64,000 nt of DNA from Sphingobacteriales bacterium 44-61 (lineage in GTDB: Bacteria; Bacteroidota; Bacteroidia; Chitinophagales; Chitinophagaceae), in the NCBI GenBank assembly GCA_001898405.1, contig MKTW01000020.1, positions 62,001-126,000 of the forward strand, given 5' to 3'. This document shows, piece by piece, positions 48,699-54,533 of this stretch. Position numbers and translations under genes: made by a program. Under the pieces are notes generated by a model, which ran no database searches, was not told the origin of the DNA, and worked only from the letters and a program-made list of their open reading frames with translations. Each line of letters opens with the position of its first letter. Position 1 is the first letter of the stretch.

Positions 48699-51600
48699 AT
48701 GCTTGGTATTCTTTCCAAACTTTTTGGCGGCAACAAATCGGACAAGGATGTAAAAAAGATCATGCCGGTTGTTGAAAAGATCAATCAGTATTTTGCCTCT
48801 TATGCATCACTGAGCAATGACCAACTCCGTCAGAAAACACAGGAGTTCCGTCAGCGCATCAAAGAATATTTAAAAGAAACAGACGATTCCATTCTTGCTA
48901 AAAACAAACAGGCAGATGAATTGCCTTTCAGCGACCTCACCGGTAAAGACGCTATTTACCAGGAAGTGGACAAGCTGAAAAAAGAAAGGGATAAGAAGAT
49001 CGAAGAGGTGCTGAATGATCTTTTACCCGAAGCATTTGCCGTAGTAAAAGAAACAGCCCGCCGCTTTAAGGAAAATACAGAGATCGTTTCCAGCGCTACA
49101 CAACTGGACCGTGATCTCAGCGTAAAGAAAAATTATATCACCATACAGGATGATAAATCCATTTTTCAGAATACCTGGTCAGCAGCCGGTGGACAGGTAA
49201 CCTGGAACATGGTGCACTATGATGTGCAGCTGATCGGTGGTGCTGTACTGCATTCCGGCAAGATCGCAGAAATGGCTACCGGTGAAGGTAAAACCCTTGT
49301 GTCCACCTTACCTGCTTACCTGAATGCACTGGCAGGAGAAGGCGTACATATCGTAACGGTGAACGATTACCTGGCCCGTCGTGACCAGGAATGGAACGGT
49401 ACCATCTTTGAATGGCTTGGCCTGAAAGTGGATTGCATTGATAAGCACCAGCCTAATAGTGAAGAAAGAAGGCAAGCCTATCTCGCGGATATTACTTACG
49501 GCACCAACAATGAATTCGGTTTTGATTACCTCCGCGACAATATGGTGCACACGCCTGAGGAAATGGTACAACGCAAACACCATTTTGCCATGGTGGATGA
49601 AGTTGACTCCGTATTGATCGATGATGCAAGAACCCCTTTGATCATCTCCGGCCCTGTAGCCCGTGGCGAGGATCAGCAATTCCACGTTCACAAACCAAGG
49701 ATCCAACAATTGGTGCAGGAGCAGGAACGTATTGTACGTAACTGTCTCAATGAAGCCAAGAAGCTGTTTGAAAAAGGAGAAGATGATCCTAAAACAGGTG
49801 GCTTATACCTCTATCGTGCTTACAGAGGCCTGCCTAAATACGGCCCGCTGATCAAATTCCTGAGTGAGCCGGGCATTAAAGTAAAAATGCAGAAAGCAGA
49901 GAACTATTATTTGCAGGACCAGCAACGGAACATGCATATAGTAGATGCCGATCTGCTTTTCCAGATAGACGAAAAACAAAACTCTGTTGATCTTACGGAA
50001 AAAGGGTTGAACATGATCACCCACTCCGGTGAGGATCCCGATTTTTTTGTGCTCCCTGATATCGGCGTACGGCTGGCTGAAGTGGAAAAAAGCCAGGGTG
50101 CTGCAGAAGAAAAACTGCAACTGAAAGAAACCATCCTGAATGATTACGCGCAAAAAGCTGACCGTATCCATACTGTTCAGCAATTGCTGAAAGCTTACGC
50201 TCTCTTCGAGAAAGATGTGGAATATGTGATCATTGATGGCGCTATCAAGATCGTGGATGAGCAAACAGGCCGTATCATGGAAGGCCGCCGTTATAGCGAT
50301 GGCCTGCACCAGGCTTTGGAAGCAAAGGAAAACGTGAAGATCGAAGCGGCTACACAAACCTATGCTACTGTTACACTGCAGAACTATTTCCGTATGTACC
50401 ACAAATTATGTGGTATGACAGGTACAGCGGAAACAGAAGCAGCAGAGCTTTGGAGCATCTACAAACTGGATGTGGTAAACGTGCCCACTAATCTGAAGAT
50501 GGTCCGGAACGACAAGCAGGACCTCGTTTACAAAACCAAAAGGGAGAAATATAAAGCTGTTATTGATGAAGTGGAAGCTCAGCGCAATGCCGGAAGGCCG
50601 GTGCTCGTAGGTACCACATCCGTTGAGATCAGTGAATTGCTGAGCCGCATGCTGCAGCAGAAAAAGATCCCGCACAATGTACTGAACGCAAAACAACACG
50701 TGCGTGAAGCGCAGGTGGTGGCTGAAGCAGGTCTTGCAGGAGCTGTGACCATTGCCACCAACATGGCCGGCCGTGGTACGGATATCAAACTCGGCCCCGG
50801 CGTAAAAGAAGCAGGAGGTTTGGCGATCATTGGTACCGAAAGGCATGAAAGCCGCCGTGTGGACCGCCAGTTGCGTGGCCGCGCAGGCCGCCAGGGCGAC
50901 CCCGGTAGTTCACAATTCTACGTTTCCCTGGAAGATGACCTGATGCGTATGTTCGGCAGCGAACGTATTGCCTCTATGATGGACAGGCTCGGCTATAAGG
51001 AAGGAGATGTGATCCAGCACAGCATGATCAGCAACAGCATTCAGCGTGCGCAGAAAAAAGTGGAGGAAAACAACTTTGGCATCCGCAAACGCCTGCTGGA
51101 ATATGATGACGTAATGAATAAGCAACGGAACGTGATCTACGGAAAACGTCAGCATGCTTTGTTTGGTGAACGCCTGGCGCTGGATATAGACAATGCATTC
51201 TCTGTAGTGTCAGAAAGCCTGGTAAGTGGTTTCCGCGAGCAGGAAGATTATGAAGGGTTCAAGATGGCTTGTATCGTAAACTTTGGTTTGGATACCGCTA
51301 TAGATGAAGAAGAATTCAAAAGAGGCGATCTGAATACGGTAATTGAGAAATTGTATACAGAAGCCACGAATAATTTTGCCCGTCACAAAGAAGATGTGCA
51401 GAAACAGGCCGTACCTGTTTTCAAGAATATCCGCCTCACACAAGGCGCGCATATCGAAAACGTGGTAGTGCCATTCTCTGACGGCCGGAAAGGATTGAAT
51501 GTGCTGGCTTCACTCGACAAGACCCTTAATACAGAAGGCAAAGAACTGACAGGATCACTGGAAAAGACCATTACCCTCGCAGTGATCGATGAGGCCTGGA

Positions 51601-52028
51601 AAGAACATCTCCGCGCCATGGACGATCTGAAACAGAGCGTACAAACGGCTTACCTGGAACAAAAAGACCCGCTGGTAATATATAAGGTAGAGGCATTCCA
51701 GCAGTTCAAGAACATGGATTCGGAGGTGAATAAGGATATTGTTTCCTTCCTCAGCCACGCCTCCATTCCTGTGCAGCAGCAAAATGCCCCGCTGAAAGAA
51801 GGCCGTCCTGAAAAGACGGATTACAGCAAAATGAGGGCGAATAAGGAAGAGATCGATGCCGCCGGTGAGGATTATGCAGCCAACGAAAGAGACCGGTTTG
51901 AGCCGGGCGGTGCAGACACTGCGGTGAAACAGGAACCTATCAAAGTAGCCCCCAAGATCGGGCGTAATGATCCCTGCCCTTGCGGAAGCGGCAAAAAGTA
52001 TAAAAACTGCCACGGTAAAGACGCCTGA
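48699..52028 (+). CDS. secA: protein translocase ATPase SecA
   Basis: 1109 residues; long for SecA because of insertions between the DEAD motor parts (for example residues 330-470 '[32 protein letters not shown]'), as is usual in Bacteroidota. Motifs: [19 protein letters not shown] (Walker A), [21 protein letters not shown] (DEVD), [38 protein letters not shown], and the C-terminal SEC-C zinc finger [17 protein letters not shown]. Cytoplasmic/membrane motor for Sec secretion. An intrinsic terminator follows. Confidence 0.98.
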
Positions 52029-52246: not shown

Positions 52247-52275
52247 AAAAAACGATGTTTTTCGCTAAATAGTGA

Positions 52276-52314
52276 ATTTACTATTGCATATCAGTAAATA
52301 CCACATAATCTTTG
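52276..52314 (+). promoter_or_regulatory. promoter with inverted-repeat -33 region, T9SS gene
   Basis: ATTTACT (52276-52282) and AGTAAAT (52293-52299) form a 7-bp inverted repeat around CTATTGCATA. TTG (52284-52286) would be the -33 element and TAATCTTTG (52306-52314) the -7 region. The same arrangement occurs at 54075 and 54357. The leader is about 75 nt. Confidence 0.6.
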
Positions 52315-52394
52315 TCCTGCAATTACGAAGTACATCCTCCAATATCTCCACAGAAAAAATACTCCGTAAAATTTAATTCATCACCCTAAAGAAA

Positions 52395-53996
52395 ATGAAT
52401 ATGAAGTGTAATTCTACGCTATGGAATCTTTTTGCCCTTACTTTAGCTTTAACTTTCAATACGTTAGCAAATGGTCAGGCAGTATATGTGGATAATGGAA
52501 GTTCTACGACTTACAGCCTTGCCAGCGGCGACAGCCTTTACATCCAATCCGGTGTTTATCAGGGTAAAATCAGCAAATTTGACGCAGGTGCGAAAATCAC
52601 TGTGGCATCCGGAGCCACCTTTCAACCCACTGGGATCACTAACCCCCGCGGCATCCTGACCAACTCAGGTTCTGTTAAACTTTCCACCCTTTCTACCAAT
52701 GGCGGTTTTACCATGTATAATTATGGTAGCCTTTGGGTAACAGGCTCTGCTACCCTGAGCCAGGGCATTCAACAATGGACCAACTTCTATGGCGGTATCA
52801 TGAAATTCGATATGGGCCTGGAGATCAATAAAAATTGTGCCCTTTTGAACCGGGGAACCATCACCAGCCTGGGTAATATGACCGTTAATAAAGACGCTTC
52901 CTTCATGAACAATAATACGGTGAAGGTTACAGGTAATGTCACTCTCAATAGTGCTGATTTCTCTAACGGCGGTAAGTTTGATGTTTCCGGCAGCTTCACT
53001 GTCAATGGCACAAGTTTCTTCACGAACAACTGCCGCGTGGTGGTTGGAAACGGGTTCACGAATAATGGCTCTGTAACTGTTTTCAATCTTGGTCTGATCT
53101 GGTGCCCTGCATCCGGTACAAGCAGCATCGTTACTATCAACGGTAGTGCTACTATCACCAATAACGGAACAATTAAAAGCGTAGACCTGACCAACTACGG
53201 CAACATGGCCGGATCAGGAAACTGGTACCTTACAGGTCATACGATCAATACCGGGAATGTGGGAATAAACGGCTCGGCAAGTGATACTGTCAAGATCTAT
53301 GATGTTACCAGGACCAGCACCTCTACCATTTTTGATGAGCAGTATAAAAAGCCTTATCCCAATGCAATCTTTGCACTTCTTAGCCCGCCCGATACTACTA
53401 ACCTTTTGTCTTCCTGCTCTCCTGAAGTTATTTCCAATATTACACTGCCTGTAAAATGGGAATACTTCTACGTGAATTTGTCTGACAACACACCTGTACT
53501 TACATGGGCTGCTGAGCAGGATCCCGGAACAGTATTCACTGTACAGCGCAGTTATGATGCGGTAAATTTCACCACTATCGCTTCTATCAATGGTGAAGAG
53601 GGAAAAAGGGTTTACAAGTTTGAAGACAAACAGGTAAACACGCAAAGCAGATCAGTATACTACCGCATCAGGGCAGTTGAGCCTACCGGCGCCATCACCC
53701 TTTCTGATACCAGGGTATTGATGTTCACCACCAAAGCCGGCATTTCTGTTCAGGCAACACCAAACCCTTTTACAAGCCAGCTGAATATCAGCTACCAGTC
53801 AACCACCCGTGAAAGGATCAATATCCGCATCGTTAGCATGTCTGGTGCGGTAATGGCCAGCAAAGCAGTGAATGTAAGCACAGGCTACAACAGCATTGCC
53901 ATCACTGAAGCAGCTTCACTGACCAAGGGTATATACCTGGTGCAACTGATCAGCGAGAACACAGTAATCGCTACAGAAAGAGTAGTTAAACAATAA
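52395..53996 (+). CDS. T9SS-secreted repeat protein
   Basis: 533 residues with a signal peptide (LTLALTFNTLANGQ). The middle is a run of short beta-helix-like units rich in Asn, Gly, Thr ('NNGTIKSV', 'NYGSLWVTGSATL', 'NNNTVKVTGNVTL'). After a fibronectin-like segment (VKWEYFYVNLSDNTPVLTWAAEQD) the last ~80 residues are a type A Por-secretion sorting domain (VQATPNPFTSQLNISYQS ... GIYLVQLISENTVIATERVVKQ). Cell-surface or secreted; ligand unknown. Its regulation is unusual: see the shared promoter motif and upstream CRP/FNR-like palindrome. A start two codons later (52401) is possible. Confidence 0.85.
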   Translation: MNMKCNSTLWNLFALTLALTFNTLANGQAVYVDNGSSTTYSLASGDSLYIQSGVYQGKISKFDAGAKITVASGATFQPTGITNPRGILTNSGSVKLSTLSTNGGFTMYNYGSLWVTGSATLSQGIQQWTNFYGGIMKFDMGLEINKNCALLNRGTITSLGNMTVNKDASFMNNNTVKVTGNVTLNSADFSNGGKFDVSGSFTVNGTSFFTNNCRVVVGNGFTNNGSVTVFNLGLIWCPASGTSSIVTINGSATITNNGTIKSVDLTNYGNMAGSGNWYLTGHTINTGNVGINGSASDTVKIYDVTRTSTSTIFDEQYKKPYPNAIFALLSPPDTTNLLSSCSPEVISNITLPVKWEYFYVNLSDNTPVLTWAAEQDPGTVFTVQRSYDAVNFTTIASINGEEGKRVYKFEDKQVNTQSRSVYYRIRAVEPTGAITLSDTRVLMFTTKAGISVQATPNPFTSQLNISYQSTTRERINIRIVSMSGAVMASKAVNVSTGYNSIAITEAASLTKGIYLVQLISENTVIATERVVKQ

Positions 53997-54021: not shown

Positions 54022-54046
54022 GCCCCGCTTTCTAGCGGGGCTTTTT
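54022..54046 (+). terminator. intrinsic terminator after the T9SS gene
   Basis: GCCCCGCT (54022-54029), loop TTCT, AGCGGGGC (54034-54041), then five T. It lies 26 bp after the stop. Confidence 0.92.
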
Positions 54047-54074
54047 ATTTCAAAAAAACTTATCAAAATCGTAG

Positions 54075-54113
54075 ATTTCCTATTGCATACTAGTAATTAC
54101 TGCAATACTTTTA
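54075..54113 (+). promoter_or_regulatory. promoter of small-RNA unit A
   Basis: ATTTCCT (54075-54081) and AGTAATT (54092-54098) flank TATTGCATAC. TTG (54083-54085), a 20-nt spacer, then TACTTTTA (54106-54113), one base from TAnnTTTG. Confidence 0.55.
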
Positions 54114-54119
54114 CTCTCG

Positions 54120-54227
54120 TTGACGGTAAGCACACAAGTAGAAAAACAATCCGATAGGATTTCAAAATATTCAGCAATGGACGGTTGAAAAAAATCAAGT
54201 CCTGCCAAATGGCAGGACTGCTTTTTT
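54120..54227 (+). ncRNA. candidate small RNA A
   Basis: An unannotated transcript of about 108 nt is predicted between the promoter at 54075-54113 and an intrinsic terminator with core GTCCTGCCAAATGGCAGGAC (54199-54218) and six T. A second unit at 54402 is homologous: CAATGGACGGTTGAAAAAA (54175-54193) and the terminator core are identical in both. The stretch CAAGTAGAAAAA is also shared. Relative to unit B there is a one-base indel inside the body and no shared reading frame, so RNA is favoured over protein. It lies in a 537-bp region between convergent genes, not upstream of any gene. Confidence 0.6.
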
Positions 54228-54356
54228 ATAAGACAGTCAATGCTTTATGTGGTAAGATACAGAACCGATCATCACCCATATACCTCCTGGATCAGACCTT
54301 ATTCCCCTTAAGTAGTATGAACTGACGATCTAGATAAAAACTCTTAATTATCGTAT

Positions 54357-54395
54357 ATTTCCTATTGCATAATAGTAAATCGTGCAATATGTTTG
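54357..54395 (+). promoter_or_regulatory. promoter of small-RNA unit B
   Basis: ATTTCCT (54357-54363) and AGTAAAT (54374-54380) flank the TATTGCATAA core. TTG (54365-54367), a 20-nt spacer, and TATGTTTG (54388-54395), an exact TAnnTTTG box. Confidence 0.65.
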
Positions 54396-54401
54396 TAGCA
54401 C

Positions 54402-54514
54402 CAAATACGGTAACACAACAAGTAGAAAAAACATCCGAAAGGAGCCAAGATATTCAACAATGGACGGTTGAAAAAAGCGTAAAGGTCCTGCCAAATGGCA
54501 GGACCTTTACTTTT
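54402..54514 (+). ncRNA. candidate small RNA B
   Basis: Predicted transcript of about 113 nt ending at a perfect 14-bp stem (54479-54492 with 54497-54510, loop AAAT) followed by TTTT. It repeats unit A, 282-286 bp downstream. The same terminator has an A-run before it and so could also stop the convergent amidohydrolase transcript. 54228-54350, between the two units, shows no gene. Confidence 0.62.
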
Positions 54515-54533
54515 GATCTTATCTTATAGGTTC

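Follow-up and report, generated by a model that had tools for sequence, protein, structure and literature searches.

Which kind of element occurs twice in tandem behind a protein gene, between this gene and a convergent neighbour? A preliminary description of the locus had proposed that the two units form a duplicated, regulated small RNA family. We analysed them in the window, i.e. the whole 64,000-nt stretch of DNA under study (G000:C20:62001-126000), which is part of a 5.58-Mb genome, probably that of a Terrimonas relative (Chitinophagaceae). The gene order in the window is a gene at 48699-52028 that, judging from its sequence, we take to be secA, followed by a gene for a protein with a sorting domain, units 1 and 2, and two amidohydrolase-like genes on the opposite strand. 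The features of the locus are as follows.

52266-52394, + strand: promoter and leader of the sorting-domain gene, with the module also present in the units (10-orthologue profile matches 52276-52337, E 1.9e-6)
52395-53996, + strand: sorting-domain gene, encoding a 533-aa protein with a C-terminal type IX secretion sorting domain (PF18962, E 7.9e-9; TIGR04183, E 7.6e-10; orthologues)
54022-54041, + strand: terminator of the sorting-domain gene (terminator scan; aligns with G001)
54067-54127, + strand: promoter module of unit 1, with the near-palindrome TTTCCTATT-N4-ACTAGTAAT at 54076-54097 (orthologue-only profile, E 6.9e-11)
54083-54085 and 54106-54113, + strand: promoter boxes of unit 1, TTG and TACTTTTA, separated by 20 nt (read from the sequence)
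54119-54227, + strand: predicted RNA of unit 1, ~108 nt, ends estimated from promoter and terminator (fold z -3.6)
54164-54192, + strand: conserved 3' block of unit 1, with the core TGGACGGTT at 54178-54186 (orthologue 3'-UTR profile, E 2.5e-4; alignment)
54198-54227, + strand: intrinsic terminator and T run of unit 1 (terminator scan; sequence)
54351-54396, + strand: promoter module of unit 2, with the near-palindrome TTTCCTATT-N4-AATAGTAAA at 54358-54379 (orthologue-only profile, E 7.2e-10)
54365-54367 and 54388-54395, + strand: promoter boxes of unit 2, TTG and TATGTTTG, separated by 20 nt (read from the sequence)
54401-54514, + strand: predicted RNA of unit 2, ~113 nt, ends estimated (fold z -6.6)
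54447-54475, + strand: conserved 3' block of unit 2, with the core TGGACGGTT at 54461-54469 (orthologue 3'-UTR profile, E 2.8e-5)
54479-54514, + strand: intrinsic terminator of unit 2 (terminator scan)

The two tandem repeats cover about 54067-54227 and 54351-54514 on the + strand. The direct repeats D1-D4 are spaced 282, 284, 283 and 286 nt apart, in line with the offset of 282-286 bp given in the preliminary description. Its other statements on the layout were likewise recovered, namely two tandem units each with a promoter, a shared body and a terminator, TTG-N20-TAnnTTTR promoters in both, an identical 20-nt terminator core, and a position between convergent genes, which end at 53996 (+) and 54534 (-). 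The stretch CAATGGACGGTTGAAAAAA is also identical between the units. Six terminator-like sites were detected, as three stems that each score on both strands, and shuffled sequences gave 0.5; the terminator stem of unit 2 scores on the - strand too, where it faces the convergent amidohydrolase-like gene. A sigma-70 scan, which does not cover the promoter type of the units, gave one promoter-like site against 2.0 in shuffles. Both predicted RNAs fold better than dinucleotide shuffles (z-scores listed above), and the longest helix is the terminator stem. When unit 1 was searched against the whole 5.58-Mb genome (E <= 0.001), it matched itself and unit 2 (E 7.6e-28) and nothing else.

To compare the units with the neighbouring gene, we built profiles from orthologues of the sorting-domain gene only, without any unit, to avoid circularity, and searched the window plus L058, L059 and L060 with them. 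The promoter profile comprises the promoter and early leader of ten orthologous genes, none from the genus of the window (g1). Its matches in the window were unit 1, unit 2 and the gene itself, with the E-values listed above, while the next best match (0.68) was noise. In G001 (Terrimonas ginsenosidimutans NA20, also of genus g1), which has the same arrangement of gene and two units, it matched the units (1.2e-9 and 1.3e-5) and the gene (2.4e-8), and it also matched the units of G125 (7.4e-11) and G201 (3.1e-13). The similarity of the unit promoters to those of the gene extends to the spacer bases between the two boxes.

The second profile represents the first 32 nt past the stop codon in ten orthologues that were picked for carrying the core. 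It matched all six units then known (E 7.9e-6 to 2.1e-3; next best match 1.2). Within the window only units 1 and 2 were matched, and there was no match behind the window's own sorting-domain gene, where the element TGGACGGTT does not occur within 100 nt past the stop codon. The conserved block stands at most 16 nt from the stop codon of the orthologous sorting-domain gene, ahead of a terminator-like stem, in G142, G004 (Terrimonas ferruginea DSM 30193), G052 and G176. Moreover, AAGATAT, the start of the block in five of the seven units, directly follows the stop codon in G301, G205 and G257.

Beyond the promoter, the similarity between unit bodies and gene leaders is modest: 16 of 77 pairs reached p <= 0.05, uncorrected and with near-duplicate genomes included. 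The best pair, unit 2 of the window with the leader of G332, shares AAGTAGAAAAAACA and a short stretch beyond it (p 0.003, the lowest value obtainable with 300 shuffles). Judged from their sequences, units 1 and 2 look like the neighbouring gene minus its coding sequence, and we presume that this gene is their parent.

The leaders of the sorting-domain gene have features of their own. In genus g123 (G301, G205 and G130; L126:895-1006, L127:3362-3473 and L128:3363-3473) they contain a short open frame, MMTIPRKKSESQP, with an extra K in G130; its stop codon abuts the start codon of the gene or overlaps with it. In G301 and G205 this frame lies partly between the complementary segments CTTACGG and CCGTAAG. 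From its position the short frame looks like a leader peptide or a case of translational coupling. Complementary segments TTACG ... CGTAA are also found in the leaders of the window (52323-52369), L130 and L134, and a 5'-UTR structure formed by them is possible.

The core TGGACGGTT is identical in 16 aligned copies, comprising all seven units and nine gene 3' UTRs; these UTRs were picked for carrying the core, and G317, the repeats (G205, G257, G052) and all core-less genes are not part of the alignment. We therefore also counted the core in the close orthologues, defined as 19 genomes with a best match of E <= 1e-60. It was present without change, 10-16 nt past the stop codon, in 10 of the 19, and with one change (TGGATGGTT) in G317. 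It was not found in eight: G000 and G001, both of which have units, and six others. Neither the core past the gene nor, by the promoter-model search, a unit was found in G298, G099, G239, G162, G029 and G277, although the reading frame used for G277 ended early and its true 3' UTR lies outside the stretch inspected. Two further named orthologues, L135 and L137, have the core 10-16 nt past the stop codon, and none of four more distant orthologues (E 1e-29 to 1e-37) has it. A terminator-like stem follows the core in the core-bearing orthologues wherever sequence was read. For comparison, a given 9-mer is expected by chance in 100 nt about once per 2800 sequences at equal base frequencies. In G257 (L107, G257:C32:16280-17862) an intact core follows the stop codon of a sorting-domain gene that is split in two.

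Directly ahead of the block, all seven units have a short predicted hairpin, with a sequence that differs between them. The core itself can supply the loop and the first bases of the stem in a weak predicted hairpin (-3.8 to -5.3 kcal/mol in the units), which was not predicted in G253 and L135 (two of 18 copies predicted unfolded). One pair of this core hairpin changed on both sides; pairing stood at 81.8% against 79.0% in shuffles, a value reached by 83 of 500 shuffles. Because covariation was no better than in shuffles, we treat the core as a conserved sequence rather than as a proven structure.

We used a promoter-module model of 19 sequences, units included, to map the element across 394 genomes of the family. 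At E <= 1e-9 there were 21 matches in 17 genomes, 14 at the gene and seven at units; 19 of the 21 belong to the training set and so match by construction, and the G257 gene and the G360 unit are outside any training set. The next match (G233, 5.3e-7) precedes an other-looking reading frame. At E <= 0.01, 96 of the 394 genomes were matched, mostly weakly, and the three matches in the window's own genome were the gene, unit 1 and unit 2. Among the weaker matches inspected by eye, that of G360 is a unit and those of G233 and G028 precede other-looking frames. Weak units may have been missed, because the filters were strict and 12 candidates were scored per genome.

Altogether, seven units were found in five genomes of two genera: two each in G000 and G001 (g1) and one each in G125, G201 and G360 (g118). 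The homologues in related genomes that the preliminary description called for thus exist. A pattern search (at most three mismatches) matched 35 of 394 genomes; of 15 loci inspected, seven are the element (G004, G125, G201, G142, G052, G176 and G001) and at least five lie in open frames (L023, L025, L026, L044 and L050). Some BLAST matches (G007, G017 and G025) reflect similarity to the terminator only.

The sorting-domain gene was found in genera g1, g4, g29, g52, g92, g118 and g123. In g118 it is present in three of seven genomes (G253, G332 and G298) and was not detected at E <= 1e-20 in the other four, all drafts (G125, G201, G360 and G385). Three of these four gene-less genomes carry a unit (G125, G201 and G360), and the fourth (G385, 64% complete) gave a weak promoter match only (0.0091). 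The unit of G125 and of G201 faces an amidohydrolase-like gene, in the place held by the sorting-domain gene in G253 and G332; the unit of G360 is at a contig end, with only its secA side visible. The secA side of the locus is variable. The gene adjoins secA in g1, g123 and G298, and about 11-12 kb separate secA from the gene in G253 (L209) and from the unit in G360 (L210), both of the same genus as G298, with no shared genes found between those two stretches.

Several searches for a known family, a partner or a target gave no support for a particular function. With the 4227 families of Rfam 15, the whole window had no match at or above the gathering threshold. We dismissed the eight sub-threshold matches as chance; the lowest E-value (0.0021) was for SurA, with 20 bits against a threshold of 100, on the - strand over a terminator. 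FopS and GibS, as far as this Rfam copy has models for them, were not among these eight. The GGA in the core raised the idea of a CsrA sponge, which was abandoned since PF02599 had no match in G000, against matches in three of 14 control genomes.

In 11 of 11 orthologues, the core was predicted to pair with the leader of the same gene no better than shuffles do (p 0.38-0.98), and the same held for the cores of units 1 and 2 and the leader in their own genome (p 0.64-0.90). The full complement of the core, CAACCGTCCA, was not enriched, with nine sites in G000 and ten in G001 (two in units in each) against 13 and 13 in controls. Of the 15 sites outside units, none is near the ATG of a same-strand frame of at least 90 codons (at most 80 nt upstream of it, or shortly downstream): eight have no such frame, and seven are at least 105 nt behind the frame start. 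The core may act by short or imperfect pairing, or by protein binding.

The palindrome TTTACTATT-N4-AATAGTAAA (at most three mismatches) exceeded its reversed control in six of 16 genomes and did not in ten, and we set aside a regulon of this palindrome. In G000, with 17 sites against 8 per strand in the reversed control, it may mark a small regulon. An earlier operator pattern gave 53 forward and 34 reverse matches in the same genome, against 23 and 36 in the control, and its best match (no mismatches) was at the sorting-domain gene. The proposal of a duplicated, regulated small RNA family is partly supported: homologues exist and no reading frame is conserved, and regulation fits the conserved promoter spacer and the near-palindrome, but no regulator or regulon was found.

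Our preferred explanation, which we rate slightly above an even chance, is that the units are paralogues of the adjacent gene that lack its coding sequence ('ghosts'), each a stand-alone, promoter-driven version of its 3'-UTR RNA that acts in trans. A unit would then combine the promoter of the gene, some of its leader and its 3' UTR, and end in a terminator. This reading starts from what can be read directly in the DNA, namely the anatomy of the units, their similarity to the gene at both ends, their conservation and the lack of a conserved reading frame. Each unit is probably transcribed from its gene-type promoter into an RNA of ~110 nt, presumably co-regulated with the gene. Acting in trans, the RNA would use the core UGGACGGUU either to pair with other RNAs or to titrate a partner that, in relatives, also recognises the core within the mRNA of the gene. 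Since the gene of genus g1 has lost the core, the units there would have assumed its role. Because covariation, leader pairing and the simple target search gave no support, the functional step is one that we infer. The modest similarity of bodies to leaders also speaks against this reading, as do the six of 19 close orthologues whose genomes yielded neither core nor unit.

Alternatively, the units could be scars, i.e. dead remains of gene copies, possibly still transcribed, that have no function of their own. Their anatomy is that of a gene stripped of its reading frame, no target was found, and their distribution is patchy. The comparison of G000 with G001 argues against this. The SecA proteins of the two genomes are 90% identical, and their intergenic regions align at the gene's terminator and the two units, whereas the best match to the 108-nt spacer separating them has an E-value of 0.65; both g1 genomes have thus kept two units between the same neighbours. 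Unit 2 is most similar to its positional counterpart in G001 (77.6% over 183 columns). Unit 1 aligns with its positional counterpart over 71 columns (85.9%, 77 bits) and with the second G001 unit over 168 columns (73.2%, 86 bits); as it matches both, its one-to-one orthology is not clear, which lends the scar explanation slightly more weight. In unit 1 of G001 the terminator is replaced by unrelated sequence, yet this still reads as a stem followed by a T run. Furthermore, the block around TGGACGGTTGAA has changed little across two genera, while bodies and terminators have diverged. We regard the scar explanation as unlikely, at roughly one chance in five.

A cis-acting role is less probable still. 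The block would then serve only the stability, processing or termination of the mRNA 3' end, and the units would be insulators between convergent genes. The position of the core shortly past the stop codon in ten of 19 close orthologues, L135 and L137, before a terminator-like stem where read, suits such a role, as do unit terminators that score on both strands; a full promoter, however, would be superfluous in an insulator, and the units have kept theirs.

That the units are independent small RNA genes, unrelated to the gene by descent although they have a promoter type and a 3' element in common with it, seems very improbable. The modest leader similarity beyond the promoter agrees with independence, but two genera have both ends at the same locus and in the correct order, and the likeness of the promoters includes the spacer bases between the boxes. 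A small peptide encoded by each unit is scarcely credible. An open frame of ~50 codons in unit 2, which runs through the terminator, would suit a peptide, but the WTVEK frame lacks a start codon before the core in five of seven units, terminators differ, and indels break any common frame, as the preliminary description had stated for units 1 and 2, with none conserved across homologues.

Returning to coding-sequence-less paralogues as the preferred reading, we asked in which direction the change went. The gene occurs in more genera than the units, which favours the gene first and loss of the coding sequence later. We tentatively suggest, at somewhat less than an even chance, that the gene gave rise to a regulatory RNA by losing the coding sequence and keeping promoter, leader and 3' UTR; gene and RNA would have divided the work in g1, and the RNA would have outlived the protein in relatives. 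A recent deletion in each genome is not borne out, because the 3' block of g118 units has its nearer counterpart in g1 units rather than in the 3' UTR of g118 genes, and because unit-bearing and gene-bearing g118 genomes are mixed in the SecA tree. In this tree of 15 genomes (G332, G385 and G301 outside), the gene-bearing G298 groups with the unit-bearing G125 (support 96/95). A better fit than separate recent deletions is an ancient unit next to the gene with later loss of one of the two, or else exchange between lineages.

The birth of bacterial small RNAs is unsettled; PMC8557413 names de novo emergence, duplication and horizontal transfer. If our reading is true, the locus illustrates one way for a protein gene to become a regulatory RNA. 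A presumed parent gene, copies beside it without coding sequence, and relatives with the RNA only can be compared here within one bacterial family, and the origin and function of the units can be tested in the named strains T. ginsenosidimutans NA20 and T. ferruginea DSM 30193. The results also point to a conserved RNA element, UGGACGGUU, past the stop codon of the gene for a type IX sorting-domain protein. Among the open-licence matches listed, judged by title and start of abstract, none dealt with these units, with an origin of a bacterial small RNA by loss of coding sequence, or with small RNAs of Terrimonas.

Among known systems, FopS and GibS are multicopy small RNAs with this promoter type that regulate surface proteins in Bacteroides, according to PMC11697453. 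These noncoding RNAs of Bacteroidota combine a sigma-ABfr-type promoter and an intrinsic terminator with a short conserved core, and the units resemble them in these respects as far as their sequence tells: there are two paralogous copies, each with a sigma-ABfr-type promoter (boxes by eye) and a terminator. In contrast, B. thetaiotaomicron has 14 FopS copies spread over multiple loci, and their seed is in a single-stranded 5' part (PMC11697453), whereas the units are two tandem copies with the core near the 3' end and both ends in common with a neighbouring protein gene. Small RNAs such as OppZ and CpxQ are made from mRNA 3' ends by processing, in the account excerpted from the review PMC9438474. 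The units are like these in that the element stands right behind the mRNA stop codon in ten of 19 close relatives, and unlike them in that it is also found in free-standing units that each carry a copy of the gene's promoter. Units 1 and 2 of the window bear promoter-like sequences themselves and are located beyond the gene's terminator rather than in its 3' UTR. Rfp18 and other independent small RNAs of Flavobacterium psychrophilum (PMC9723704, available part) are likewise conserved independent RNAs of Bacteroidota, a likeness by description only. The units thus share features with FopS and GibS and with 3'-UTR-derived small RNAs, and are assigned to neither group; we consider them candidate small RNAs whose two ends appear to be those of a protein gene.
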